Assembly (NCBI GenBank): GCA_035574235.1
Contig: DATLZA010000176.1
Span: forward strand, 1 to 36,791
Origin: Planctomycetota bacterium
Lineage (GTDB): Bacteria > Planctomycetota > MHYJ01 > JACPRB01
Direction of reading: 5' to 3'
Length of the DNA: 36,791 nt
Position numbers and translations under genes: made by a program. This document shows, one piece after another, positions 234-34,667 of this stretch. The notes beneath the pieces are model-generated. The model was not told where the DNA came from. It ran no database searches and saw only the letters and a program-made list of their open reading frames with translations. Each line of letters starts with the position of its first letter. The first letter of the stretch is position 1.

Positions 234-1481
234 ATGCCGGAAGGCGCGCCGATCATCGTCCTCATCGGAACCCTCGACACGAAGGGACGTGAGATCGCCT
301 ACCTGCGCGACCGCATCCGCGAGCACGGCCTGGGGACCCTCGTTCTGGACTCCGGCATCCTCGGCGGACCGGTGGACATCGTCCCCGACATCCCGCGGGA
401 GGAGGTCGCCCGCGCCTCCGGTTCCGACCTCGAGAAGATCCGCCACGCGGGCAGCCGCGGGGCCGCCGTCGAGCAGATGATGAAGGGCGTGGCGGCCACC
501 TGCGCCAGGCTCCACCAGGAGGGCCGCCTTCACGGAGTCGTCAGCCTGGGCGGCGCGGAGGGCGCCGTCATGGCCGCCGCCGCGATGCAGGTCCTCCCCG
601 TGGGCGTCCCCAAGCTCATCGTCACGCCCCTGGCTTCCGGCCGGCGCGTCTTCCATCCCTTCGTCGGCATCCGCGACATCATGGTCATGCACTCGGTGAT
701 CGACATCCTGGGCATCAACCAGGTGAGCCGGCTCATCTTCGACCAGGCCGCCGGGGCCATCGCCGGAGCGGTCAAGGGCATGGCCGAGGCCTCGCGCCGC
801 GCCCCCGCGGCCGCCGGGGAACGCCGCAAAGTAGTGGCGCTCACCATGCTCGGCAACACCACCAAGGCCGTCGAGCACATCAAGCCCAGGCTCGAAGCCC
901 GCGGGTTCGAACCCATCATCTTCCATTCCAACGGCGTCGGCGGCGCGGCGATGGAGGAGATGATCCGCGAGGGACGCGTGGACGCCGTCATCGACTACAC
1001 CACCGACGAGCTGACCGATCACCTCGTGGGCGGCTTCCACGACGCGGGCCCCCGGCGCCTCGAGGCCGCCGGAGAGCGCGGCCTTCCCCAGGTGGTCGTC
1101 CCCGCCTGCGTGGACTTTTTCGTCCAGGGACCCCGCAACGCCATCCCCGACAAGTGGAAGGACCGGAAGGCCTATTACCACAACCCGAGCTTCACGCTGC
1201 TGCGGACGAGCCGGGAGGAGATGCTCGAGGTCGCGCGGATCATGGCCCGCAAGCTCAACGCCGCGCGCGGGCCGGTCGCCGTGGCGATTCCCACGGCGGG
1301 GCTTTCCATCCCCAACAAACCCGGCGGGGAATTCTGGGATCCCGAGGGGGACGCCCGCTTTCGCCAGGAGCTCAAGCGAAACCTTCGCCCGGAGATCCGG
1401 GTCGTCGAGGTCGACGGCCACGCCAACGACCCCGCCTTCGCCGAGAAGGTGCTCGAACTTTTTCTGGAAACCGTGCGATAG
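234..1481 (+). CDS. UPF0261 / Tm-1-like ATP-binding domain protein
   Basis: The 415-residue protein matches the length of bacterial UPF0261 proteins. The signature GTLDTKG lies at residues 12-18, right after the first hydrophobic strand, and a second glycine-rich loop, SLGGAEG, is at 104-110. The family takes its name from the N-terminal half of the tomato Tm-1 resistance protein, which binds ATP. The biochemical role of the bacterial members is not established. No signal peptide or membrane segment is visible, so it should be cytosolic. It is the first gene of a seven-gene operon with a creatininase-like protein, a FAD oxidase/Fe-S pair and an epimerase. A role in processing a small metabolite is therefore plausible but inferred. 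ATG 234 is the first start after the promoter; the Shine-Dalgarno sequence is weak. Confidence 0.88.
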   Translation: MPEGAPIIVLIGTLDTKGREIAYLRDRIREHGLGTLVLDSGILGGPVDIVPDIPREEVARASGSDLEKIRHAGSRGAAVEQMMKGVAATCARLHQEGRLHGVVSLGGAEGAVMAAAAMQVLPVGVPKLIVTPLASGRRVFHPFVGIRDIMVMHSVIDILGINQVSRLIFDQAAGAIAGAVKGMAEASRRAPAAAGERRKVVALTMLGNTTKAVEHIKPRLEARGFEPIIFHSNGVGGAAMEEMIREGRVDAVIDYTTDELTDHLVGGFHDAGPRRLEAAGERGLPQVVVPACVDFFVQGPRNAIPDKWKDRKAYYHNPSFTLLRTSREEMLEVARIMARKLNAARGPVAVAIPTAGLSIPNKPGGEFWDPEGDARFRQELKRNLRPEIRVVEVDGHANDPAFAEKVLELFLETVR

Positions 1482-1514: not shown

Positions 1515-2384
1515 ATGGCGTTCAATCCGGTCTCGTGGTGTCTGGCGGACCTCTGCGTCCCCGACGTGCAGGAGTATCTCAAGGAGAAGGACATCATCCT
1601 CATCCCCATCGGCTCGATCGAGCAGCACGGCCTGCATCTGCCGCTGGTGACCGATGCGGCCCAGGGACTCGAAATCGCCCGGCGCGCCGCCGCCAAGGCC
1701 CGCGTCCTGTACACCCCGGTCGTCTGGTTCGGCTACTCGCCCCACCACCTCGGCCGCGTCGGCGAAGGGACCGGAACGATCACCCTGCGCGCCTCCACCC
1801 TGCATGCGGTCCTGTACGACATCGTCCGCAGCCTCATCCACTCGGGCTTCAAGAAGTTCGTCATCGTCAACAACCAGGGCTCCAACATCAAGGTGATGGA
1901 TCCCATCCTCCGCAAGCTCCACTACGACACGGGGGCCTTCATCTGCATGAGCAAGCTCTACGCCGAGCGGTACATCGGCATCATCAAGGAAGTCATGGAG
2001 AATCCGCCGGAGGAAACGCCCGGATGGCACTCCAGCGAGCTTGAGACGTCCCAGATGCTGGCCTACAACGAGAAGCTCGTGCGCATGGAGCGCGCGAAGA
2101 AGGAGCTGGCCCACGCCCCCAAGTGGCTGCCCCCCTCCTTCCAGAAGAACGACGGCATGCCGGAAGTGAAATTCAAGGGCTACGAGTACTTCGTCTTCCC
2201 CATGGAGCACCGGGACTTCTCCGACACGGGCACGATCGGCAACCCCCTCCGGGCCACCCGGGAAAAGGGCGAAAAAACCTACGAGCTTTATTCCGACCAC
2301 CTCGCCGAGGCGCTCAAGGAATTCGAGAAGGTCAAGGTGGAGCTCAAGCCGGGCGTCCAGGAATTCGTGGACCGGGCGCTGTAA
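1515..2384 (+). CDS. Creatininase family protein (putative amidohydrolase/lactonase)
   Basis: The 289-residue protein carries the creatininase-family opening block PIGSIEQHGLHLPLVTD (31-47), with the metal-binding residues Glu36, His38 and Asp47. The later block HSSELETS (172-179) matches the family HAGExETS motif. The usual NGHGGN block is replaced by NNQGSN (119-124), so the central His is Gln. This may change metal binding. Family members hydrolyse cyclic amides or convert small cofactor precursors, and the substrate cannot be read from the sequence. A good ribosome-binding site (GGGAGG, 1502-1507) precedes ATG 1515. The gene lies 33 bp after the UPF0261 gene and 3 bp before the FAD oxidase gene. 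The context suggests opening a ring or removing an ester or amide from a sugar-derived compound; this is inference. Confidence 0.87.
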   Translation: MAFNPVSWCLADLCVPDVQEYLKEKDIILIPIGSIEQHGLHLPLVTDAAQGLEIARRAAAKARVLYTPVVWFGYSPHHLGRVGEGTGTITLRASTLHAVLYDIVRSLIHSGFKKFVIVNNQGSNIKVMDPILRKLHYDTGAFICMSKLYAERYIGIIKEVMENPPEETPGWHSSELETSQMLAYNEKLVRMERAKKELAHAPKWLPPSFQKNDGMPEVKFKGYEYFVFPMEHRDFSDTGTIGNPLRATREKGEKTYELYSDHLAEALKEFEKVKVELKPGVQEFVDRAL

Positions 2385-2387
2385 CCC

Positions 2388-3836
2388 ATGTCCCCCCGAA
2401 TCCTGGCCCGGGACGTCCTTCTCAGCGAAGTGGCCGACGTGGTCGGCGACGGCGACGTCACTGTCCGCGAGGTGGACCGGCTGGCCTACGCTCAGGACTA
2501 CTTCTGGCTGGGCCAGATGTGGATGGACCGGGGCGAGGAGCCCGCGCGGCCCGACCTCGTCTGCTACCCCGAGTCCACCGAAGAGGTCAGCCGCCTCCTC
2601 AAGATCGCCACGCGCCACCGCGTTCCGGTCATCCCCTACGGCGGCGGCAGCGGCACCCAGGGAGGCGTGGTCCCGCTCTACGGCGGAATCGTGCTCGACC
2701 TCAAGAAAATGAACCGCATCGTGCGGCTCGACGAACAGTCCCTCACCGTCCGCGCCCAGGCCGGCATCAACGTGATGCACCTCGAGGAGGCGCTCAACCG
2801 GCGCGGACTCACCTGGGCGCACTACCCCGCCTCCGGTCCCGTGGCCACTCTCGGCGGCTGCATCGCCGCCCGCGGAACGGGCACGATCTCCACGAAGTAC
2901 GGCAAGGCGGAGGACATGGTCGTGGCGCTCCAGGTCGTGCTGGCCGACGGCCGCGTTCTGGAGACGCTTCCCACGCCCAACCACGCCTGCGGACCCGGGC
3001 TCCTGCAGCTTTTCGTGGGCTCCGAAGGGACGCTCGGCGTCATCACCGAGGCGGTCGTGCGCCTGGATCCGCTGCCGCCCGTGCGGCGCTTCCGGGGGTA
3101 CCTCTTCGAGGACCTGCGCAACGCGCTGGAGGCCGGGCGCCGCATCATGGTCCGGCGCCTGCATCCGTGCACCCTGCGCCTGTACGACCCGCCGTCGACC
3201 AAAAAATTCGTCAAGCGGGTCCTCCATCTCGACGTCGAGGGCTCTTTCCTCATCACCGGCTGCGACGGAGAGCCGGAGATGGTGGACCTCGAAGAGCGGC
3301 TGATCCACGAGATCTGCACGGGCCTCGGAGGCAAGGACGCCGGCCGCGAGGCCGGCGAGCACTGGTGGGCCCACCGGTACGACTTCTACTACCCGCCCTT
3401 CGCTCCGGCGCTTCCCACCCTCTTCGGAACCGTCGAGAGCACCACGACGTTCGACCGCATCTACGAGCTCTACCTTGCCAAGAAGAAGGCGATCGAGGAA
3501 GGATTCAAGGAGTGGCAGGCCCATTACACGGGCCACTTCTCCCACTGGTATCCGTGGGGCACGATGGTGTACGATCGCTTCTACATCGAGAAGCCCCCGC
3601 AGGACGCCCGGGAGGCGCTCCTCCTGCACAACCGCGTCTGGGCCACGGCCGCCCGCACGAACCTGGCGCACGGCGGCACGCTCAACGACCACCACGGGAT
3701 CGGCTTCAAGCTGGGATGGCTCATGCCCGAACAGTACGGCGCGGGGTGGGAGGCGCTGTGCCGCATCAAGGACGCCCTCGACCCCCTCGGGATCATGAAC
3801 CCCGGCAAGCTCGGCTTCGGACCTCCCAAGGCTTGA
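2388..3836 (+). CDS. FAD-binding oxidase, GlcD/AGPS-like (VAO/PCMH fold)
   Basis: This 482-residue flavoprotein has the FAD_binding_4 core. PYGGGSGTQGG (83-93) is the pyrophosphate loop, and GSEGTLG (211-217) is a further hallmark. The C-terminal half resembles alkyl-dihydroxyacetone-phosphate synthase and glycolate/D-lactate oxidases: it has an HHG motif at 435-437 and ends with DPLGIMNPGK, close to the usual LDP-x-x-x-x-NPG signature. It probably oxidises a 2-hydroxy acid or sugar-derived alcohol and passes electrons to the Fe-S protein encoded 12 bp downstream, as GlcD does with GlcF. The start is 3 bp after the creatininase gene, so translation is probably coupled. No export signal is seen. 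True ether-lipid synthesis is unlikely in this sugar-related operon, although it cannot be excluded. Confidence 0.88.
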   Translation: MSPRILARDVLLSEVADVVGDGDVTVREVDRLAYAQDYFWLGQMWMDRGEEPARPDLVCYPESTEEVSRLLKIATRHRVPVIPYGGGSGTQGGVVPLYGGIVLDLKKMNRIVRLDEQSLTVRAQAGINVMHLEEALNRRGLTWAHYPASGPVATLGGCIAARGTGTISTKYGKAEDMVVALQVVLADGRVLETLPTPNHACGPGLLQLFVGSEGTLGVITEAVVRLDPLPPVRRFRGYLFEDLRNALEAGRRIMVRRLHPCTLRLYDPPSTKKFVKRVLHLDVEGSFLITGCDGEPEMVDLEERLIHEICTGLGGKDAGREAGEHWWAHRYDFYYPPFAPALPTLFGTVESTTTFDRIYELYLAKKKAIEEGFKEWQAHYTGHFSHWYPWGTMVYDRFYIEKPPQDAREALLLHNRVWATAARTNLAHGGTLNDHHGIGFKLGWLMPEQYGAGWEALCRIKDALDPLGIMNPGKLGFGPPKA

Positions 3837-3848
3837 GAGAGACCAACC

Positions 3849-4961
3849 ATGCCTTTCACCGAGGACGATTACAGGACGGCGGTCCGGTCCTGCCGCTTCT
3901 GTCCGATGTGCCACCACGCGGACCTCGTGACGACGCTCACGCGCCGCGAAACCACCTCGCCCCGCGGGCGGGGGCTGACGCTCTTCGCCCTGGAGCAGGG
4001 CAAGCTCTCCTGGGACGCGTCCGTCGCGGACGTCCTCTACCGCTTCACCGCCGACGGCCTCTCCCGCCACGTCTGCGCCGGGCACATCAACCACGACGAG
4101 ATGGTGATCGAGGGGCGGCGTCGCGTGGCCTCCGCGGGAGCGGCCCCCGAGGCGGTCGGGCGCGTCCGGGCCAACATCGAAAAAACCGGCAATCCCTGGG
4201 GCGAAGCGGATCCGGGCCCCGAACGGGCCCTGGGCATCAAGGCGCGCCGCCGGGACGCCGCGGTCCTCGTCGTGCTCGGACCGGCGGCGCGCGTGCGCCG
4301 TCCCGAAGCGGCCCGCGCCTTCGGACGCCTCCTCGAGCGCGCGGGCCTCGTCCCCGCCGTGCTCGACGAGGAGGGCGATCCCGGCCTCCTTCTCTATCAG
4401 CTCGGTTTGCCCGAGCCGGCGCACGCCGCGGCCCGAACGCTGGCGGAGAAAATCCGCGCCTCCGGGGCCCGCGAGGTCGTCACCCCCGACCCCGACGTCT
4501 ACCGGACGCTGACGGCGGGCTTCGGCGATTTTCCCGGCCTCGGCAAGGCCGCCGCGGTCCGGCACGCCGCGGAATTCCTGGAGACGCTCGCGCGGGAGGG
4601 CCGCCTCAAGTTCCGGCCGCCCGCCGCGAAGACGGCCTACCACGATCCGTGCGCGCTGGCCCGGTTTTCGCCCTTGATCGCGCCGCCGCGCGCGCTGATC
4701 AAGGCCGTTTCGGGCCGGGATCCCCTGGAGCTTCCCTGGAACCGCGAGGCGGCCGCCTGCTCCGGCGAGTGCGGCGGCCTTCCCTTCACGTACCCGGATC
4801 TGGCCCGCGCGGCCGCCGAGCGGCGCGCGGCCCAGGCGCGCGAGACCGGCGCCGAGGTCCTCATCACGGCCGGTCCCGGGACCGCGCACCACCTGGCGCA
4901 GGCCGGCGGAGGGTTCGCGAAAGATTTGACGGAATGGACGGCGGAGTGTCTAGTGGGATAA
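3849..4961 (+). CDS. GlcF-like Fe-S/CCG-domain protein with missing cysteines
   Basis: The 370-residue protein looks like the Fe-S partner of a GlcD-type oxidase. It has an N-terminal ferredoxin-like region and a C-terminal cysteine-rich (CCG) region. The first block, CRFCPMC (Cys15, 18, 21), is followed by the typical SPRGRG segment (38-43), but the fourth cysteine position reads Asp. Where a second four-cysteine cluster is expected, only Cys76 remains. The CCG region keeps HDPC (Cys268) and CSGECGG (Cys304, 308). Its final Cys-Pro-x-Cys motif reads GPGT at 342-345. It may hold only one cluster, or mainly act as a structural partner. It is encoded directly after the FAD oxidase, supporting a two-subunit oxidoreductase. 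The domain assignment is solid; the redox function is uncertain. Confidence 0.85.
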   Translation: MPFTEDDYRTAVRSCRFCPMCHHADLVTTLTRRETTSPRGRGLTLFALEQGKLSWDASVADVLYRFTADGLSRHVCAGHINHDEMVIEGRRRVASAGAAPEAVGRVRANIEKTGNPWGEADPGPERALGIKARRRDAAVLVVLGPAARVRRPEAARAFGRLLERAGLVPAVLDEEGDPGLLLYQLGLPEPAHAAARTLAEKIRASGAREVVTPDPDVYRTLTAGFGDFPGLGKAAAVRHAAEFLETLAREGRLKFRPPAAKTAYHDPCALARFSPLIAPPRALIKAVSGRDPLELPWNREAAACSGECGGLPFTYPDLARAAAERRAAQARETGAEVLITAGPGTAHHLAQAGGGFAKDLTEWTAECLVG

Positions 4962-4984: not shown

Positions 4985-5965
4985 ATGGGGATGAAAATCG
5001 CCAGCCACCATTGGATGCGCATGGTCGACCCGCTCGAGAAGGTTTTCGCGCGCCTGGCCCGCTGCGGCTACGACGCCATCGAGCTCAGCGGCGAACCCCA
5101 TAAGCCGGGCTACTCGGTGCCCGAAATCAAGAACCTGATGGAGAAGTACAAGATCGAGGTCTGGGGCGCCGTCACCCTCATGGTCCAGGGCCGCGACCTC
5201 GTCAGCCATCTGCCCGAAGTCCGCGCCAAGAGCATCCAGTACTGCATCGACATCCTCGACTGGCTGAAGCCCCTCGGCGGCAAGGAAATCACGGTCGTCC
5301 CCGGCGAGGTCGGCCGCATCAAGTCCGTGGCCGACCCCGACGACGAGTGGAGGTGGGGCGTCGAAGCGATGCGCAAGATCGCCGCGCACGCGCGCGAGCT
5401 CAAGATCAAGGTCGCCATCGAGCCCCTGAACCGCTTCGAGACGAACTTCATCAACAACCACAAGCAGGCGCTCCTCCTGGCCCAGGAGGCCGGAGACGAC
5501 GTGGGCGTCTGCCTGGACGCCTTCCACATCAACATCGAAGAAGAGGACCCGGTCGCCGCCATCAAGGCCGTGGGCAAGAAGCTCTACGACTTCCACGTGG
5601 CCGACACGAACCGCCGCCCCCCCGGCCAGGGACACCACGACTGGGACGCGATCCTCGGCGCCATCGCCAAGACCGGCTACGAAGGATGCCTCACCAACGA
5701 GTTCGTGATCCCCGACGACCGGACGCCGCTCAATCCCTCGAAGGGAGATCCCGCCGCGCTCAAAGGGATGACGCCGGAGGAGATCAAGTTCTACGTGGAC
5801 CATGCGATGGCGGTCCTGAACGACGAGGAGTACGAAAAGCACGTCCGCGCCACGGGCGACTTCCTGAACCGCTGGCTCCGCAAACACGGCCTCAAGGGCG
5901 GCGGCGGCGCGCCGGCGCCGAAGAAGAAGGCCCGGCCGGCGGCCGCGAAGTCCCGGAGGCGGTAG
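4985..5965 (+). CDS. D-tagatose/D-psicose 3-epimerase-like sugar isomerase
   Basis: This 326-residue TIM-barrel protein belongs to the AP-endonuclease-2-like sugar epimerase group. The block EPLNRFETNF (146-155) is typical of D-tagatose 3-epimerases. The metal/catalytic set Glu146, Asp178, His204 and Glu239 has nearly the same spacing as in characterised ketose 3-epimerases. HVADTNRRPPGQGHHDW (204-220) is another family block. It should invert C3 of a ketose in the cytosol. ATG 4985 is chosen because GGAGGG (4973-4978) lies 6-7 bases upstream; an ATG at 4991 is less well placed. The last 25 residues form an unusual Gly/Ala/Pro/Lys/Arg tail ending in SRRR, outside the catalytic fold. It is the fifth gene of the operon, 23 bp after the Fe-S gene. 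Confidence 0.9.
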   Translation: MGMKIASHHWMRMVDPLEKVFARLARCGYDAIELSGEPHKPGYSVPEIKNLMEKYKIEVWGAVTLMVQGRDLVSHLPEVRAKSIQYCIDILDWLKPLGGKEITVVPGEVGRIKSVADPDDEWRWGVEAMRKIAAHARELKIKVAIEPLNRFETNFINNHKQALLLAQEAGDDVGVCLDAFHINIEEEDPVAAIKAVGKKLYDFHVADTNRRPPGQGHHDWDAILGAIAKTGYEGCLTNEFVIPDDRTPLNPSKGDPAALKGMTPEEIKFYVDHAMAVLNDEEYEKHVRATGDFLNRWLRKHGLKGGGGAPAPKKKARPAAAKSRRR

Positions 5966-6686: not shown

Positions 6687-7322
6687 GTGAGGCGGCGCGC
6701 GGCGGCCTTCGGAGCGCTCCTGGCGGCGGCCTGCTCGGTCTCCCCGGAGGAGCCCGGCTGGCGGGATCTCTTCAACGGCCGCGATCTCGAAGGCTGGGAG
6801 GTCGTGGGCACGGCCGTCTGGCGCGTGGAAGACGGCGAAATCGTCGGCGGCCAGGAGGGCGACCCGCGCCGGTCGGGGCTCCTGGTCACCCGCGAGACCT
6901 TCGGCGACTTCGAGCTGTCGCTCGAATTCAAGATCGACGAGCACGGAAAGTACAACAGCGGCGTCTACCTGCGCCACCCGCCCGGCCGCGCCGCGCGGGC
7001 GGGTTATCAGGTCAACATCGGTCGCGGCGCCGCCGGCGAATACTGCGGCGGGCTCTTCCTCAAGGACTGGCTGGCCAAGGGGGACGAACACGACCGGATC
7101 CGCCGGCCCGGGGACTGGAACCGGCTCTTCATCCGCGCCCGGGGACCCCGCATCACGGTTCGCCTGAACGGCGTCGAGGTCGTGGACTACACGGATCCCG
7201 CTCCCGAGCCGAGGCTTCTGGAACCCGGGGCGATCGCGCTTCAGACCTACGGCGCGGAGGGGCACGCCGGCTGGGTGCGGTTCCGCCGCCTCCGCATCCG
7301 CCCGCTTCCCCCGCCGGGCTAA
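6687..7322 (+). CDS. DUF1080 (3-keto-disaccharide hydrolase-like) lipoprotein
   Basis: This 211-residue protein has the DUF1080 pattern almost in full. WRDLFNGRDLEGW lies just after the signal sequence. It is followed by the FELSLEFKID strand, the NSGVYLR motif, a WNRLFIRARG segment and the NGVEVVDY strand near the end. The family has a concanavalin-like beta-sandwich and includes enzymes cleaving 3-keto-glycosides, and it is abundant in planctomycetes. The start is GTG 6687. The N-terminus ends in LLAAAC, a plausible lipoprotein cleavage site though not a perfect lipobox. It closes the seven-gene operon. Its stop overlaps the stop of the opposing Gfo/Idh gene by 4 bp. Together with that dehydrogenase it suggests 3-keto-sugar chemistry, an inference from family knowledge. 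Confidence 0.88.
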   Translation: MRRRAAAFGALLAAACSVSPEEPGWRDLFNGRDLEGWEVVGTAVWRVEDGEIVGGQEGDPRRSGLLVTRETFGDFELSLEFKIDEHGKYNSGVYLRHPPGRAARAGYQVNIGRGAAGEYCGGLFLKDWLAKGDEHDRIRRPGDWNRLFIRARGPRITVRLNGVEVVDYTDPAPEPRLLEPGAIALQTYGAEGHAGWVRFRRLRIRPLPPPG

Positions 7323-8506
7323 CCCCGGGCGCGGGCTTTCGCGGAACGCGCCTTCCGGACGCGCGCGGCCTTCCCGCCCTTCCGCAGCGTCCAGGCCGGC
7401 ATCCGGAGCACCTTCCCGCCCAGAAGCGCCGACTGGTGCGCCAGGATCCCCACCATCGTGATGTTGGCGGACTCCACCGCGTTCGGATAGGGATCCCGTC
7501 CCTCGACGACCGCGCGGACGAACTCGTGCGCCAGATGCGGGTGCGAGCCGCCGTGCCCGGAACCCTGGATGAACGAGAGATGCCGGTTTTCCTTGGAATC
7601 GTAGACTCCCTGCGTCGTGAAGCGCCGGATGCCTTCGGGCAGCAGATGCGCGAAATCCGGCACCTTGACGCGCTCGGGAATTTCAGGCTCCGGCTTCTTG
7701 GCGGTATGGATCACCGGATCTTCGCCCTCGATGAGCGGCCATTCGAAGGATTTCTTCGACCCGTAGACGTCGAAGCTCTCGCGGTACTGGCGGGCCGTGT
7801 CGAACAGCGAGCGGTAGATCCGGGCGGACAGGTCGCTCTCGCGGAACTTGATGTGGCAGGTTTCGACGGCGAAGGGGGAGTTGTAGCGGCGCACGAGCTC
7901 CGGCCGGATCGTCCCCGAGCCGAAACAGGAAACCGCCTCCGCCTCCGAGCGCAGGAGCCCCAGGCAGGGCCCCACGCAGTGGGTCGCGTACCACATCGGC
8001 GGCAGCCCCGGCCAGTAATTCGGCCATCCGTCCATGTCCTGCTGATGCGAGGCCTGGACGAACTGGATCTTGCCGAGGTCCCCGCGAAGGGCGAGCTCGC
8101 GGACGAAGAGAAACTCGCGGGCGTAGACCACGGTTTCGGCCATCATGTACGTCAGGCCCGTCTTCTTCTGGAGCTCCACGATCCGGCGGCATTCGGCCGA
8201 CGACGTCGCCATGGGCACGGTGCACATCACGTGCTTGCCGGCCTCCAGGCCGGCGATCGACATCCAGCCGTGGTCCGGAATAGGGGTGTTGATGTGGACG
8301 GCGTCCACGTCGCGGTCCCGGAGGAGCGCCCGGTAGTCCTCGTAGCGCCGGGGAACCTTGAAGGCGTCGGCGATCTCCGCCAGGCGCTTCGGGTTGCGCT
8401 GGCACACCGCCACCAGCTCCGCGTCCGGATGATTCTGGTAAATCGGGATGAACTCGGCCCCGAAGCCCAGCCCGACGATCGCGACCCTGACTTTCCTGGC
8501 GCCCAT
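7319..8506 (-). CDS. Gfo/Idh/MocA family oxidoreductase
   Basis: The 395-residue protein has an N-terminal Rossmann fold with GLGFGAEF (12-19) as the dinucleotide loop and the conserved GKHVMC segment at 90-95. The usual Glu-Lys-Pro motif after it reads TVP (96-98), so the conserved lysine is absent. The C-terminal domain has the GHGGSHPHLAHEFVRAV pattern used in this family to hold substrate. It should be a cytosolic NAD(P)-dependent sugar dehydrogenase or a related enzyme. ATG 8506 is preferred because a GGAGGACGAAGCC stretch precedes it; an upstream ATG would add an Arg/Pro-rich leader. The last 23 or so residues form a Lys/Arg/Ala tail, as in the epimerase. It is divergent from the XylR-like regulator. 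Confidence 0.87.
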   Translation of the reverse strand: MGARKVRVAIVGLGFGAEFIPIYQNHPDAELVAVCQRNPKRLAEIADAFKVPRRYEDYRALLRDRDVDAVHINTPIPDHGWMSIAGLEAGKHVMCTVPMATSSAECRRIVELQKKTGLTYMMAETVVYAREFLFVRELALRGDLGKIQFVQASHQQDMDGWPNYWPGLPPMWYATHCVGPCLGLLRSEAEAVSCFGSGTIRPELVRRYNSPFAVETCHIKFRESDLSARIYRSLFDTARQYRESFDVYGSKKSFEWPLIEGEDPVIHTAKKPEPEIPERVKVPDFAHLLPEGIRRFTTQGVYDSKENRHLSFIQGSGHGGSHPHLAHEFVRAVVEGRDPYPNAVESANITMVGILAHQSALLGGKVLRMPAWTLRKGGKAARVRKARSAKARARG

Positions 8507-8537
8507 GGCTTCGTCCTCCGCAAAAAGCGACCCCGGC

Positions 8538-8543
8538 ACCCTA
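8538..8543 (-). promoter_or_regulatory. Candidate -10 of the Gfo/Idh gene
   Basis: TAGGGT reads on the minus strand 31 bases ahead of the Gfo/Idh start. The same hexamer followed by a similar G-rich stretch (TAGGGTG then CGGG) lies at the mirrored place ahead of the divergent regulator (8622-8627). No good -35 is seen. Low-confidence prediction. Confidence 0.3.
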
Positions 8544-8580
8544 TCCGGGCGGCGCCGCGGGCGCCATGAGAACGGACGCA

Positions 8581-8627
8581 CTTTTTTTGAGATTTTTGAC
8601 GCGGGCGCCCCGGAGCCGGGGTAGGGT
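8581..8627 (+). promoter_or_regulatory. Regulator promoter region with T-tract repeat
   Basis: Two T-runs separated by GAGA (8582-8597) form a short direct repeat of TTTTTGA type, followed by TTGACG (8596-8601) and TAGGGT (8622-8627). The 20-bp spacing is long for a sigma-70 promoter. The T-rich repeat is the only AT-rich block between the divergent Gfo/Idh and XylR-like genes. It is the likeliest site for the AraC-type DNA-binding domain to act on both promoters. Inferred from position and composition. Confidence 0.3.
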
Positions 8628-12527: not shown

Positions 12528-13709
12528 ATGTCCCTCTTGGCCGCCGTCCTCCTCGCCTCCGCTCCGACCGCCCCGCAGGACCGGCTCCCCCGCTTCCGCG
12601 AAGAGACCATCGACCCGGACGCCGGCGTGGGCTACGCCGTCACCGCCGCCGACCTCAACGCCGACGGCCGAACCGACGTCGTCGCCGTCACCGAACAGCC
12701 GGACCGCGTGCTCTGGTACGAAAACCCTTCCTGGAAACGCCGCGTCGTCGTCGAGAAGGAGCCTCGCCTGCCGGTCTGCATCCAGCCCCTGGACGTCGAC
12801 GGCGACGGCACCCTGGAGCTCATCCTCGGGGCGGACTGGCAACCGGCCAACACCCGTTCGGGCGGCTCCGTGTGGCTGCTCCGGCGCGGAGCCGGCCTCG
12901 ACGAACCCTGGACCGCGCGGAAGATCGACGAGGAACCCACGATGCACCGCATGCGCCTCGTGCGCGTCGGAGGGCGCGCGGAGCTGGCCTGCAAGACCCT
13001 CCACGGCCGCGACGCCCGCCCCGGAGAGGGCGCGGGCGCCTCCCTCTACCTCCTGCGCCGTCCGCCCGATCCCTTCACGGGCGCGTGGACCCGCCAGATC
13101 GTCCAGAACGAACTCCACATCACCCACAACTTCTGGCCCGTGGATTGGGACGGCGACGGAACCGACGAAATCCTCGTGGCCGCGCTCGAAGGAATCTTCC
13201 TCTTCCGCAAATCGGCGGACCGGTGGGTCCCGCGGAAACTGGCCGACGGAGACCCCGAGAAGCGCGGCGCCGGGGAAATCAAACCGGGCCGCCTCCCCGG
13301 CGGCAAGCGCTATCTGGCGACCATCGAGCCCTGGCACGGCCACCAGGCCGTGATCTACACGGAGCCCGAAACCGCCGACGGACTCTGGAAACGCCGCGTC
13401 CTCGTCGAACGCCACAAGGGGGGACACGCCGTCTGGACCGCCGACCTCACGGGAACCGGCGTGGACTCGCTCGTCGTGGGATTCCGCGGCGTTCCGGAAG
13501 GCAAAAAGGACGAGTGCGTCGTCTACGTCTTCCATCCGCTCGACGACACGGGCGAGCGCTGGGAAAGAAAAGTCCTCGACGAAAAGGGACTCGGATGCGA
13601 AGACGCCCTCTGCGCCGACCTCAACGGCGACGGCCGCCCGGAGATCATCGGCATCGGACGCAGCACCCGCAACGTGAAGATCTACTGGAACGAAGGGAGA
13701 TCGCCATGA
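12528..13709 (+). CDS. Secreted FG-GAP/VCBS repeat protein
   Basis: The 393-residue protein starts with a short signal-like hydrophobic segment and is built of repeated beta-propeller-like blades. Calcium-binding-type loops recur: DLNADGRTD (about 43-51), DVDGDGTLE, DWDGDGTDE and DLNGDGRPE near the end, with a degenerate DLTGTGVD copy. These are hallmarks of FG-GAP/VCBS repeats, an integrin-alpha-like seven-bladed propeller common in exported planctomycete proteins. A role in binding a surface partner or polysaccharide outside the cytoplasm is likely; no catalytic residues are apparent. Its TGA overlaps the ATG of the next gene in ATGA, so the two exported proteins are translationally coupled and may act together. 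Confidence 0.85.
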   Translation: MSLLAAVLLASAPTAPQDRLPRFREETIDPDAGVGYAVTAADLNADGRTDVVAVTEQPDRVLWYENPSWKRRVVVEKEPRLPVCIQPLDVDGDGTLELILGADWQPANTRSGGSVWLLRRGAGLDEPWTARKIDEEPTMHRMRLVRVGGRAELACKTLHGRDARPGEGAGASLYLLRRPPDPFTGAWTRQIVQNELHITHNFWPVDWDGDGTDEILVAALEGIFLFRKSADRWVPRKLADGDPEKRGAGEIKPGRLPGGKRYLATIEPWHGHQAVIYTEPETADGLWKRRVLVERHKGGHAVWTADLTGTGVDSLVVGFRGVPEGKKDECVVYVFHPLDDTGERWERKVLDEKGLGCEDALCADLNGDGRPEIIGIGRSTRNVKIYWNEGRSP

Positions 13710-18634: not shown

Positions 18635-20026
18635 TCAGGCCAGGATCTCTTCGATCACCCGACCGGATACGTCCGTCAGCCGGTACCGGCGGCCGTTGTG
18701 CCGATAGGTCAGCCGGCGATGGTCCATCCCGAGCAGGTGCAGGATCGTCGCGTGCAGATCGGGCACGGAGACGGGATCGCGGGCGATCTTGTATCCCAGC
18801 TCGTCGAGCTCCCCGTAGGACGTTCCCCCCCGGACGCCCCCGCCGGCCATCCAGACGAGAAACCCGTGGGGATTGTGGTCCCGCCCGAGCCCCCCCTGCG
18901 ACACGGGCATGCGGCCGAACTCGCCGCCCCAGACCACCAGCGTCGTCTCGAGCAACCCCCGCCGCTTGAGATCCTTGAGCAGTCCGGCGATCGGGACGTC
19001 CGTCTCCTCGCAGCGGGCGTCGTGGTTCTTCTTCAGATTCTCGTGAGCGTCCCACTGGTCGTCCACGTACGCCTGGACGAACCGTACCCCCCGCTCCACA
19101 AGCCGGCGGGCCAGGAGGAGCTTTTCCCCGTATGGCCGCGTCTCCTCGCGATCCAGTCCGTACAGCCGCCGCGTCTCCTCGGTTTCGCGGGACAGATCCA
19201 CCGCCTCGAGCGCCTCGGTCTGCATCCGGTAGGCCAGTTCGAAGCTCTCGATGCGGGCCCGAAGCGCCTCCTCGTCGGGATGCCGCCGCCGGTGCTCTAC
19301 GTTGAGCCGCCCGAGCAGGTCAAGCTGCGCCCGCTGATCCGGCGCGCTCATGTCCGCCGGACGCGCCAGGTTGAGGATGGGCGTCCCCTGCGTGCGGAAC
19401 ACCGTGCCCTGGTAGGACGACGGCAGGAACCCCGCCCCCCAGTTGAGGGGTCCCCCTTTCGTTCCGATCCGGTTGCCCAGAACGACGAAACCCGGCAGAT
19501 TCCGATTTTCCGTTCCGAGCCCGTACGTCACCCAGGCGCCCGCGCTCGGGAATCCCGGCCGGATCACGCCCGTGTTCATCTGGAACATGGCGGGCGCATG
19601 GCTGTTGGACTCGGCGTGCACGGACTTGATGAAGGCGATGTCGTCCACGCACTCCGCCAGGGCGGGATATTTCTCGCACACCCAGGCTCCGCACCGTCCG
19701 TGCCGGCGAAACCGGTAGGGGGACCTCAGAAGCGGGCCGGGCCTTCCGAAGAAGACTTCGACCCCTTCGAGGCGCTTCCCATGGGCCCGGTCCAGCTCGG
19801 GCTTCGGGTCGAAAAGATCGAAGCCGCTCGGCCCTCCCTCCATGAAAAGCCAGATGACCGATCGGGCGCGGGGAACGTGATGCGGGCCGGGCGGGGAACC
19901 TCCCGCCGGGGCGGCCTCGAGAAGCCCCTCCTCCCCCAGGAGGTGCGCCAGGGCGGCCATCCCGAAGCCGAGCCCCGCCCGTCCCAGGAGCTCCCGCCGC
20001 GTCGGCCCTTCGCGATTAATCCACAT
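18635..20026 (-). CDS. DUF1501 protein, Tat-exported (first copy)
   Basis: The 463-residue protein opens with TRRELLGRAGLGFG, a twin-arginine signal, so it should be folded before export. The body has the DUF1501 pattern: SVIWLFMEGGPSGFDLFDPKPEL, an ESNSHAPAMFQMNTG block, then WGGEFGRMPVSQ and GRDHNPHGFLVWMAGGGVRGG near the C-terminus. DUF1501 proteins belong to the alkaline phosphatase/sulfatase-like clan, and their role is not established. The gene starts inside the end of the PSCyt1/DUF1553 gene (11-bp overlap), so the two are translated together. This pairing is common in planctomycetes. It is the last member of the sigma/anti-sigma/PSCyt/DUF1501 unit. Confidence 0.9.
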   Translation of the reverse strand: MWINREGPTRRELLGRAGLGFGMAALAHLLGEEGLLEAAPAGGSPPGPHHVPRARSVIWLFMEGGPSGFDLFDPKPELDRAHGKRLEGVEVFFGRPGPLLRSPYRFRRHGRCGAWVCEKYPALAECVDDIAFIKSVHAESNSHAPAMFQMNTGVIRPGFPSAGAWVTYGLGTENRNLPGFVVLGNRIGTKGGPLNWGAGFLPSSYQGTVFRTQGTPILNLARPADMSAPDQRAQLDLLGRLNVEHRRRHPDEEALRARIESFELAYRMQTEALEAVDLSRETEETRRLYGLDREETRPYGEKLLLARRLVERGVRFVQAYVDDQWDAHENLKKNHDARCEETDVPIAGLLKDLKRRGLLETTLVVWGGEFGRMPVSQGGLGRDHNPHGFLVWMAGGGVRGGTSYGELDELGYKIARDPVSVPDLHATILHLLGMDHRRLTYRHNGRRYRLTDVSGRVIEEILA

Positions 20027-22493
20027 AGGCGAATTCGTTCGTCATGAAAAGCGTATGTCCCAGATCCGCCAGACCCCGCCGCTCGTCCGCCGCCCTCCCG
20101 AGAAACTCCTCCGCCGCCTCGCGCTCGCGCGGCGTCGGGGCGCGCCCCAGCGCCAGCGCCCAGGCCCGCTCGATTCGAGCGCCCGCGCCGGGCCCCGCCT
20201 CGCGAAGCACCCGATCGGCGAAGTCCCATGCGCATCCGCGCACGAACGGATCGTTCAGCAGCGCCAGAGCCTGCGGCGCCACCGTCGTCGATACCCGGCG
20301 CCCGCAGCTCGCGCTGGGCGAAGGCGCGTCGAAAACCTCCGTCAGCGGATAGGGCACCGACCGCTTGACGAAGACGTATACGGTCCGGCGCCAGACTTCC
20401 GGGCTTTCCCGGACATCCCGCGGGTAATGATGCTCCCCTTCGGTGCGCGTGATGATGGCCTCCGCGGGAATGGGCACCTTGACCCCCGGTCCGTACATCT
20501 TTGGATTGAGCCGGCCGCTGACGGCCAGAAGCGCGTCGCGCAGGGCTTCCGCTTCGAGCCGCCGGGGACGGCGGCGCGCCAGAAGGCGGTTCTCGGGATC
20601 CTCGCGGACCGGCCCCGGGGACGCGGAGGTGTCCTGGACGTACACGGCGCTCGTGAGAATGAGCCGGTGAATCTCCTTCAGCCGCCAGCCGCGGCGCACG
20701 AGCTCCGAAGCCAGCCATTCGAGAAGTTCGGGGTGCGTGGGACGCTCGCCCTGGGCCCCGAAGTCGTTCGGGGTCCGCACGAGTCCCTCGCCGAAATGAT
20801 GCTGCCAGAGGCGGTTGACGATCACGCGGGCCAGAAGCGCCCCGGCCCCCCGCTCGACGTCGGTGAGCCATTCCGCCAGGGCCGCGCGCTGAAACGACGT
20901 GCGGGCCCCCGGCGGACGGCTCAGGCGCGGCTCCGGATCCCCCAGGGCGCTCAGGAATCCGAGCGTCAGAAGCTCCTTCTTGGCGTCCACCTCGCCGCGC
21001 TCCAGGAGCGGGCTGCGCGAAGGTTCCGGCCCCGCGTCGGTCAGAACGAGCCCGAACGGCGGCGCGGGAGGACGCCCGCGCTCGGCCTCCCGGATCGCGG
21101 CGGCCCGGCGGTCCCACTCCGCGCGTTCCGCGGGACTCAGGGAGCCGCGCAGCTCCGCCTCCGAAACGCGCAGCTCCTTCTGATGCACCGTCAGGAGTTC
21201 CTGTTGCCGCTGGTTGGACGGGTCGCGGGGCGCCAGCAGAATTTCCCGGTCCTCCTCGCGGATCCGGAGCGCCTGGACCTTCCGCCGAAAGAGGGGTTCG
21301 CGCGCGCGGCTCAGGAAGGCTTCCAGTTCCCGGCGCAGGGGCGCCACCCGCGCCTGGTACTCTTCCTCGAGCCGGCGCCACGCCTCCGCCTCCGCGGGCG
21401 GAACCAGCGGCACCTCGCGACGGCGCGTGTCGATGAACGCCGCCAGCATCCGGTAGTACTCCCGCGTCGGAATCGGATCGTACTTGTGATCGTGGCAGCG
21501 GGCGCACCCGAGGGTGAGCCCCAGAAATCCCTGTCCGAGGGTCGATAACACGTCGTCCAGCTCGTCGTACCGGTTGCGCTCCTGGTTGCGGGGGGCGTCG
21601 GCGGACTGGCGCTCCTGGACGGGCCCGGCCGTGCAGAAGCCCGTGGCCGCCGCGGCCAGGGGATTCCCGGGAGCCAGTTCGTCCCCCGCGATCTGCCAGC
21701 GCACGAACGTGTCGAAGGGCAGGTCCTCGTTGAAGGCGCGGATCACGAAATCCCTGTAGGGCCAGGCGTGTTTGCGGTCGTTGTCGAAACGGTACCCGTC
21801 GCTGTCGGCGTACCGGGCCACGTCCAGCCAGTGGCGCGCCCAGCGCTCCCCGAAGGCCGGCCCGGCCAGGAGACGGTCCACCAGGCGCTCGTACGCCTCC
21901 GGCGCGGGGTCGTTCACGAACGCCTCAATTTCCTCGGGCGAAGGCGGCAGTCCCCAGAGGTCGAAGAAGACGCGCCGAATCAGCCGCCGGCGGTCTGCGG
22001 GAGCCGAAGGCGTCCAACCCCGCGATTCGAGAGCCGCCAGGATGAAGCGGTCCACGGGTGTGCGGACCCAGGAAGCATCGCGCACCTCGGGAGGCTCCGG
22101 CCGCGCCGGCGGCCGAAACGCCCAGTGGCGCTCCGCGGGCGCCTCGGGCACCTTCAAGGGGGACCGCGCGTACGGAGCCCCCGCCGCCAGCCATTCCCGC
22201 AACGCCCGCAGCGACGCCGGCGGGAGCTTCGGGGCCCGATGCGGCATGAAGGGCTCCTCCTCGTGGGCCACGAGCCGCCAGAGCAGGGTTCGCTCCGGCG
22301 GACCGGGTTCCACCGCCGGTCCGCTTTGGCCCCCTTTCCGAAGGCCCTCGCGGGTGGTCAGGTCGAGCCCGCCCTTCCGCTTGGCCGGATTGTGACACTC
22401 CACGCAGCGGCGTTCCAGGATCGTCGAGGGATCCTCCTGCCCCGGGCGGACCGCCGCCAGAAGCGCGACCCCAACCCACGCCATCCCATTCAT
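20016..22493 (-). CDS. PSCyt1-DUF1549-DUF1553 (PSD1) protein
   Basis: The 825-residue protein combines three planctomycete domains. A cytochrome-c-like PSCyt1 part holds the heme motif CVECH at 30-34 and a possible axial Met in FMPHR near residue 82. A DUF1549/PSCyt2 part follows (about 135-340; PVDRFILAALESRGW, then GERWARHWLDVARYADSDGY). A DUF1553 part lies in the C-terminal half (VIVNRLWQHHFGEGLVRTPNDFG). A signal-like hydrophobic start implies export, where heme c could be attached. The partner DUF1501 gene overlaps its end. Its start ATG overlaps the previous stop in ATGA, confirming 22493 over the ATG at 22484. Function is unknown; an oxidative step on polysaccharides has been suggested for such modules, which I cannot verify here. 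Confidence 0.92.
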   Translation of the reverse strand: MNGMAWVGVALLAAVRPGQEDPSTILERRCVECHNPAKRKGGLDLTTREGLRKGGQSGPAVEPGPPERTLLWRLVAHEEEPFMPHRAPKLPPASLRALREWLAAGAPYARSPLKVPEAPAERHWAFRPPARPEPPEVRDASWVRTPVDRFILAALESRGWTPSAPADRRRLIRRVFFDLWGLPPSPEEIEAFVNDPAPEAYERLVDRLLAGPAFGERWARHWLDVARYADSDGYRFDNDRKHAWPYRDFVIRAFNEDLPFDTFVRWQIAGDELAPGNPLAAAATGFCTAGPVQERQSADAPRNQERNRYDELDDVLSTLGQGFLGLTLGCARCHDHKYDPIPTREYYRMLAAFIDTRRREVPLVPPAEAEAWRRLEEEYQARVAPLRRELEAFLSRAREPLFRRKVQALRIREEDREILLAPRDPSNQRQQELLTVHQKELRVSEAELRGSLSPAERAEWDRRAAAIREAERGRPPAPPFGLVLTDAGPEPSRSPLLERGEVDAKKELLTLGFLSALGDPEPRLSRPPGARTSFQRAALAEWLTDVERGAGALLARVIVNRLWQHHFGEGLVRTPNDFGAQGERPTHPELLEWLASELVRRGWRLKEIHRLILTSAVYVQDTSASPGPVREDPENRLLARRRPRRLEAEALRDALLAVSGRLNPKMYGPGVKVPIPAEAIITRTEGEHHYPRDVRESPEVWRRTVYVFVKRSVPYPLTEVFDAPSPSASCGRRVSTTVAPQALALLNDPFVRGCAWDFADRVLREAGPGAGARIERAWALALGRAPTPREREAAEEFLGRAADERRGLADLGHTLFMTNEFAYVD

Positions 22494-33305: not shown

Positions 33306-34667
33306 CTACAGAAGCTCGCGGATCGGCTCCCCGCCGTCCAGAGCCGGCACGGGCCGCCCCTGGTGGTTGAGGAACTGGACGTGCGGATCGACTCCCAGCA
33401 CGTGGTAGATCGTGGCGTGGAGGTCCGCCGGCGTCAGCGGCCGCTCCTTGGGGTATTCGCCCCGGGCGTCCGTGGCGCCCACGACGCGGCCGCCCTTCAC
33501 TCCGCCGCCTCCCAGGACCGCGAACATCGCGTTGCCCCAGTGGTCGCGCCCGGGGGTTCCGCGGCCGCTTCCGTCGTTCATGCGCGGCGTGCGGCTGAAC
33601 TCGCCGCAGATGACGACGAGCACCTTCTCCAGAAGCCCGCGGCTCTCGAGGTCTTCGAAAAGCGTGGCCACGGCGGCGTCGTACCGGGGCAGGTAGTTCT
33701 CCATGCCCTGCTTGAGATCCCAGTGGTGATCCCAGCCGCCCATCTGAACGGTCACGAACGTGACGCCCGCTTCGGCCAGACGCCGCGCCAGCAGGACCGA
33801 CTGGCCCCACGTGTGGCGGCCGTAACGCTCCCGAAGCTTGGCGTCCTCGGCGCCGATGTCGAAGGCGCGGCGGACCTCGGCGCTGGTGACCAGATCGAAG
33901 GCCTGCTGCTCGAATCGGTCCATCGTCTCGAGCAGCCCGCCGGCGTCCGCCTCGCGGCGCAGGGTGTCGAACGAGCGGCGCAGCTCGCGCCGGTCCTGGA
34001 TGCGCTCCACGGTGAGGCCCCCGGGGAGCCGGAGGTTGCGGACCTGGAAATCCGCGCGGTTCGGATCGCCTTCGGTCTCGAAGGGATCCAGGTGGCGTCC
34101 CAGATAGTTGCCGCCGAAGTAGCCGGGACGGAGGCCCACGCTGGCGGCGTGGGGCACGGCGACGTACGCCGGCAGGCCGGGACGGCGCGCGCCCAGGACC
34201 TTCGTGGCGATCGACCCGAGGGAGGGGTACTTTCCGGTCGTGTCGGCCCCGCTGGCCCCCGGCCGCCCGGTCAGCATGAGATGGGCTCCGCCGAAATGGT
34301 CCCCGTCCCCATGGTGGAGCGACCGGACGATGGAGAACGTATGGGCGACCCGCGCCTGGCGGGGGAGAAGTTCCCCGATCTGCATTCCCGGGACGTTCGT
34401 CGGAATGGGGCGCCAGAAGCCGCGGTACTCGGCGGGCGCATCGGGCTTGAGGTCGTAGAGGTCCATGTGGCTGGGTCCGCCGTCCAGCCAGATGAGGATC
34501 ACCCGGGCGTCGCGGGACGCCCGGCCGGCCCGGGCCGCTTCCTCGCGGGCGCGCAGCAGCCCGGGAAGCCCGAACGAGGCCATCCCGGCCACCCCGAGCT
34601 GAACGAAGCTCCGACGGGTCATCCCGTCGCAGTACCGCGAAGCGCCGCCGGCATCGACGCGCAGCAT
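33306..34667 (-). CDS. DUF1501 protein, Tat-exported (second copy)
   Basis: The 453-residue protein has a twin-arginine leader, MTRRSFVQLGVAGMASFG, starting at residue 16. The DUF1501 body follows: VILIWLDGGPSHMDLYDLKPDAP, then GGAHLMLTGRPG, QMGGWDHHWDLKQGMENYLP, VICGEFSRTPRMN and GRDHWGNAMFAVLGGGGVKGG. It differs clearly from the first copy, so the two are not recent duplicates. It probably folds before export and belongs to the sulfatase/alkaline-phosphatase-like clan; its function is unknown. Unlike the first copy it has no PSCyt/DUF1553 gene beside it. A GGGGGGTATTC stretch precedes ATG 34667, and an AT-rich island (34706-34722) upstream probably holds the promoter. Confidence 0.9.
   Translation of the reverse strand: MLRVDAGGASRYCDGMTRRSFVQLGVAGMASFGLPGLLRAREEAARAGRASRDARVILIWLDGGPSHMDLYDLKPDAPAEYRGFWRPIPTNVPGMQIGELLPRQARVAHTFSIVRSLHHGDGDHFGGAHLMLTGRPGASGADTTGKYPSLGSIATKVLGARRPGLPAYVAVPHAASVGLRPGYFGGNYLGRHLDPFETEGDPNRADFQVRNLRLPGGLTVERIQDRRELRRSFDTLRREADAGGLLETMDRFEQQAFDLVTSAEVRRAFDIGAEDAKLRERYGRHTWGQSVLLARRLAEAGVTFVTVQMGGWDHHWDLKQGMENYLPRYDAAVATLFEDLESRGLLEKVLVVICGEFSRTPRMNDGSGRGTPGRDHWGNAMFAVLGGGGVKGGRVVGATDARGEYPKERPLTPADLHATIYHVLGVDPHVQFLNHQGRPVPALDGGEPIRELL

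Follow-up and report, generated by a model that had tools for sequence, protein, structure and literature searches.

A GlcF/EtfD-type subunit with one predicted [4Fe-4S] site in a Planctomycetota flavoprotein gene cluster

The window, i.e. the whole stretch of 36,791 nucleotides from a Planctomycetota bacterium that was analysed here, carries near its start a cluster of five genes. It begins with a UPF0261 (Tm-1-like) protein (234..1481, +) and a creatininase-family hydrolase (1515..2384, +), continues with a flavoprotein containing FAD_binding_4 and FAD-oxidase_C domains (2388..3836, +) and the 370-residue GlcF/EtfD-type subunit P0001 (3849..4961, +), and ends with a xylose-isomerase-like TIM barrel (4985..5965, +). 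The first two genes and the last were assigned by domain matches and are conserved at the ortholog locus L051. The TIM barrel was nearest to the IolO and psicose-epimerase models and the creatininase-family protein to the creatininase and IolN models, in both cases below cut-off. A 3-keto-disaccharide hydrolase (PF06439; 6687-7322) is encoded just downstream of the cluster, together with a protein (7319-8581, -) that we take, by its look, to be a Gfo/Idh/MocA-type oxidoreductase. Neighbouring genes and nearest models therefore suggest a catabolism of oxidised sugars or of the inositol type, a substrate class that we infer from gene content. An FG-GAP protein (12528-13709) with a match to the beta-propeller of aldos-2-ulose dehydratase is possibly a further sign of oxidised-sugar metabolism. 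A PSCyt1/PSCyt2/PSD1 protein and a DUF1501 protein are encoded at 20016-22493 and 33306-34667 (-); both are presumably typical of Planctomycetota. No bacterial function of UPF0261 was found among the literature matches listed, as far as their text was available, nor was literature found that links any two of UPF0261, creatininase and FAD-linked oxidase, and a 'Tm-1-like ATP-binding' protein gave no literature match.

The original prediction had paired P0001 with a FAD oxidase. A FAD flavoprotein is indeed encoded at 2388..3836, while the oxidase part of the label held less well, as the best matches by sequence among solved structures were alkyl-DHAP synthases (2UUU and 4BBY with E 2.8e-52 and 3.4e-46), followed by a mitochondrial-type D-lactate dehydrogenase (E 1.2e-41), and GlcD, the best NCBIfam model, stayed below its cut-off (200.2 vs 567.9 bits). 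In the alignment, all 13 rows of the flavoprotein branch contain HxSHx[YF] and HHG in place of the HAGDGN and EHG of E. coli GlcD. HHG is common to 2UUU and 4BBY, whereas HxSHxY is shared with 2UUU only, 4BBY having no HxSH at this position. The flavoprotein is thus alkyl-DHAP-synthase-like by sequence, but it adjoins an iron-sulfur-type subunit, unlike alkyl-DHAP synthase (AGPS) itself. The AGPS reaction has no net redox. Taken together with the AGPS-like matches, this means that the electron acceptor may matter less than the GlcD annotation suggests. A bacterial AGPS-like case is found in the available part of PMC8151288, where it is proposed in silico that the flavoprotein of the P. aeruginosa PA3026-PA3024 operon makes alkyl-glycerone phosphate.

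The reading frame of P0001 is intact. The protein contains eight cysteines in total, namely C15, C18, C21, C76, C268, C304, C308 and C367, and the residues named in the original prediction, Cys15, 18, 21 and 76, CSGECGG (304-310) and GPGT (342-345), were all present. It had also been described as GlcF-like, which agrees with a match to the CCG model PF02754 (38.8 bits vs a cut-off of 20.6) in one stretch at residues 263-344 and with the fold described below. The scores with the GlcF model NF008434 (30.2 bits) and the TfrB model (51.6 bits) lay below the cut-offs of 333 and 385, respectively, and the Fer4 dicluster models gave no match at E <= 1. By alignment, the protein is divided into a helical ferredoxin domain (residues 1-98 with borders set by the analyst; 3849..4142, +), which keeps one cubane site, a first CCG domain (about residues 136-258; 4254..4622, +), in which all D1 cysteines are absent, and a second CCG domain (about residues 259-370; 4623..4958, +), in which C268 and C304 are kept.

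A structure model was built from six sequences, P0001 and five relatives, and reached a pLDDT of 82.2 and a pTM of 0.85, with values near 70 for residues 11-30. Its top fold match was EtfD (Foldseek E 1.0e-13), onto which residues 4-370 were superimposed at EtfD positions 290-747 (Z 28.0, rmsd 2.8, 352 residues). According to this comparison, the ferredoxin and two-CCG fold is present in P0001. LutA and HdrB chains followed as matches to the CCG half. In the phmmer search of solved structures with P0001 alone, only weak and unrelated matches were obtained (best E 0.25); EtfD was recovered with the profile A1 (E 1.2e-33). A hypothetical protein of Helicobacter pylori (PDB 3KWL) also resembled the model (Z 21.0, rmsd 3.3, 309 residues, 9% identity) and possibly represents a further protein with this fold.

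The cluster sites were assigned with the ligands given for the cryo-EM structure of Mycobacterium smegmatis EtfD (PDB 9OJN) in the available part of PMC13083937, which are Cys301, 304, 307 and 422 for D4 and Cys311, 412, 415 and 418 for D3. In alignments with relatives and E. coli GlcF, C15, C18 and C21 of P0001 fall on cysteine positions 1 to 3 of motif I, with C76 at position 4 of motif II. They correspond to EtfD Cys301 (C15; 3891..3893, +), Cys304 (C18; 3900..3902, +), Cys307 (C21; 3909..3911, +) and Cys422 (C76; 4074..4076, +), so that the D4 ligands are complete with four of four. The D3 ligands are missing altogether, with D25 at the fourth position of motif I and F, D and S at the first three of motif II. 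On the same partial source, none of the four D1 ligands is left in the first CCG domain and two of the six D2 ligands (five Cys and one His) remain, C268 and C304, the other positions being S305, G342, T345 and D216. C308 is an additional cysteine that is retained in the ortholog L051. The kept cysteines are therefore the full D4 set and the lost ones the full D3 set. A random loss of four out of eight ligands removes exactly one cubane's set in 2 of 70 choices. A shift of cysteine positions was considered as well and ruled out, since the flanks align without shift and other residues occupy the D3 positions; the cysteines reported as lost are really missing. The original prediction had seen the four N-terminal cysteines as the leftover of two clusters and a possible non-canonical site, and here it has to be corrected, as they form the full canonical D4 set of EtfD in the ligand lists mentioned. 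Judged from sequence, P0001 retains one complete and ordinary predicted [4Fe-4S] site.

P0001 shares its fold and the D4 ligand positions with EtfD, but EtfD additionally has D1, D2, D3, a haem and a membrane region according to the available text of PMC13083937. With the iron-sulfur subunit GlcF of E. coli glycolate dehydrogenase it has the pairing with a FAD protein and the CCG family in common, while GlcF contains CxxCxxCxxxC twice and most CCG cysteines, unlike P0001. The second CCG protein of the same genome has both ferredoxin motifs in full and CCG positions like those of E. coli GlcF, and the organism thus also makes an ordinary GlcF-like CCG protein.

Locus L051 of genome G127, which belongs to a different class of the same phylum, has all five genes in unchanged order. 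The identities to the window are 69% for UPF0261, 86% for the creatininase-family protein, 75% for the flavoprotein, 52% for the subunit and 62% for the epimerase. The ligand cysteines and the losses of P0001 recur in the ortholog, and seven of its eight cysteines are present there, C367 being the exception. With segment borders chosen by the analyst, the identity is 67% (66/98) in the ferredoxin domain, 40% (14/35) in the linker, 46% (57/123) in the first and 42% (47/111) in the second CCG domain. The predicted one-cluster pattern is thus conserved across two classes of the phylum.

Related proteins were surveyed in 71 distinct rows, which were taken by similarity to P0001 and A1 and are not a random sample; two of them (L048 and L050) are pieces of one protein. 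Motif II was readable in 64 rows and unreadable in seven. The D3 tally was based on motif II because the script detected no motif I pattern in 8 of the readable rows. Motif II was CCCC in 48 rows and CC[STAQ]C in nine, and at least two of the first three cysteines were missing in seven, namely P0001, L051, L052-L055 and the Mesorhizobium protein. An eighth is L112 (G561), which the search profile did not include and which was inspected visually. The D4 set is complete in all of these D3-poor proteins except that of Mesorhizobium; as the remaining seven form two lineages (P0001 with L051, and L052-L055 with L112), this invariance counts little more than twice. The loss reported for P0001 was hence common to its ortholog and to further relatives. 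In the nine CC[STAQ]C rows (L009, L025, L029, L075, L076, L078, L079, L081 and L082), motif I is CxxCxxxCxxxC and the third cysteine of motif II is missing. Serine replaces the third cysteine of motif I in L061 and L062. D1 loss occurs in other rows as well, e.g. L028, L088 and L095.

The genes are rarely found within the phylum. Matches to the flavoprotein at E <= 1e-90 were obtained in 9 of the 392 genomes sampled (best four candidates per genome scored) and matches to P0001 at E <= 1e-25 in 5 of 392, its own included (best five scored); with the best four, five or seven candidates scored per genome in these large searches, absences count as weak. At E <= 1e-25, P0001 was matched in 3 of the 23 genomes in the class of the organism, and the two besides its own carry the full-cysteine type L061/L062. 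A scan of genome contigs gave six relatives and no close ortholog; the best showed 27% identity along most of the query. Searches of plasmids with P0001, L053 and L056 yielded 37, 16 and 19 records; the 20, 16 and 15 listed were Fe-S proteins, heterodisulfide-reductase-type proteins or unannotated. The plasmid records H1, H13 and H38 do not belong to the P0001 subfamily by their motifs. The Mesorhizobium subunit found only itself on plasmids.

Further stages of cysteine loss were observed in the wider branch. The subunits L052-L055, which adjoin flavoproteins 47-49% identical to that of the window, retain C1-C3, C3' and C4', whereas C4, C1' and C2' are missing; L112 shows the same pattern. All eight ferredoxin cysteines are present in L056 of the same branch. 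A plasmid of Mesorhizobium sp. B2-1-8 encodes a flavoprotein with 53% identity (FJ970_RS33130) and, 11 bases further on, a GlcF-type homolog annotated as a 'hypothetical protein' (FJ970_RS33135, L097:10368-11492), which aligns with P0001 (24% identity in pairwise blastp, E 4e-11). Only one of its eight ferredoxin cysteines is left and D4 is lost, too. This pair of subunit and AGPS-like flavoprotein adjoins a xylulokinase. UPF0261, creatininase, flavoprotein and epimerase occur together in genomes G128 and G157, where a PQQ-repeat (BamB-like) protein is encoded directly after the flavoprotein, at the site expected for the iron-sulfur subunit (L057:3553-6105 and L058:3907-6384, -). A close relative of the subunit was absent from both in a profile search, which returned distant ones only (best E 2.2e-20); with this profile, the subunits of G127 and G351 reached E values of 1e-124 or lower. 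No such subunit was found within 12 kb around the locus of G400, whose flavoprotein is 43% identical. The flavoprotein of G303 lies at a contig end, where a missing neighbour is uninformative, and only the whole-genome profile search speaks for this genome, which is 79% complete.

In the flavoprotein tree, L056 groups with L052-L055 and apart from P0001. The subunit tree, from which 17 cysteine-rich columns were removed, agrees with weaker support (82/95). Both trees were calculated without AGPS rows. Holding the D3-poor rows together was not rejected, with p-AU values of 0.192 for the subunit and 0.067 for the flavoprotein, and a loss of D3 in two separate lineages is favoured by the trees, though not shown. 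The proteins can tentatively be arranged as a natural series, which we hold to be somewhat less probable than its opposite, and in which the wire subunit would lose one cluster after another and yet remain associated with its flavoprotein. It would lead from L056 with eight cysteines via D4-only proteins to the single cysteine of Mesorhizobium and finally to the absence of the subunit in G128 and G157. The D4-only stage consists of P0001 and L051, with L052-L055 and L112 having one spare D3 cysteine. Along this series the flavoprotein would have moved to another acceptor or to redox-neutral chemistry, the subunit would have become a cofactor-poor scaffold, and D3 may have been lost twice.

The reading that we prefer, at slightly better than even odds (probability about 0.55), is that P0001 is a GlcF/EtfD-type subunit in which only the D4 [4Fe-4S] cluster, bound by C15, C18, C21 and C76, is left of the four-cluster wire D1-D2-D3-D4. 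The CCG half would have retained its fold without the ligands for its usual clusters. P0001 would stay paired with the flavoprotein, whose substrate is probably an oxidised sugar or a sugar acid, and electrons would most likely pass from the flavin directly to D4 and from there to a separate acceptor. The sequences themselves show which ligands are present, conserved or lost and how the genes are paired, whereas assembly and redox activity of the cluster, as well as the substrate and the acceptor, are inferred. The unusual electron route that had been proposed for the pair may exist. A flavin docked on the CCG half may be out of reach of D4 once D1-D3 are missing, which speaks against a relay from flavin to D4.

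A structural or regulatory role of P0001, with one D4 [4Fe-4S] cluster or none, is the strongest alternative, less probable than the relay but well worth considering. The flavin electrons would then be passed to another acceptor, such as oxygen, ETF or a cytochrome, or there would be no net redox. The homolog with a single ferredoxin cysteine beside the Mesorhizobium flavoprotein and the gene clusters of G128 and G157 without the subunit are in line with it, and indicate that the flavoprotein can probably work without D4; the AGPS matches among solved structures and the common HHG motif point in the same direction. On the other hand, all D4 ligands are kept in seven proteins while other sites erode, GlcD is the best NCBIfam model, and AGPS sequences are absent from the trees. 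It is improbable that the four cysteines hold a single metal, e.g. zinc, instead of a cluster. Four cysteines generally suffice for zinc and a zinc-finger model gave a sub-threshold match to residues 9-23 (E 0.096), but the positions are those of a cubane site in the solved homolog EtfD, as far as its ligands are listed in the available text, and L056 of the same branch has the complete ferredoxin set. Decay of the gene, a sequencing error or a misassembly is very unlikely, since the frame is intact, the same cysteines and losses occur in the other genome and the ferredoxin domain is best conserved, even though conservation is lower for the subunit than for the other four genes (52% vs 62-86%).

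For the preferred one-cluster subunit, a precedent is given by the EtfD homologs FadF and DgcB, in which the D1 cysteines are absent; this passage in the available part of PMC13083937 covers D1 loss only and does not describe a loss of D3 as in P0001. Loss of D3 in this family was not found among the literature matches listed, including the parts available of PMC13083937, PMC13416013, PMC5296606, PMC4481167 and PMC8151288. No ligand numbers for SdhB were found in the literature. Fold, family and the loss of single clusters are thus known, while no description was found in these partly available sources of a wholesale D3 loss with D4 kept, or of a branch running to one cysteine and no subunit.

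The findings suggest that this widespread subunit loses a cubane with all of its ligands together, and that it can retain D4 by itself. This provides a natural experiment on which of the clusters is required by a flavin partner. Proteins annotated as '(Fe-S)-binding proteins' or as hypothetical are also flagged as possible carriers of a single cluster or of no cluster.
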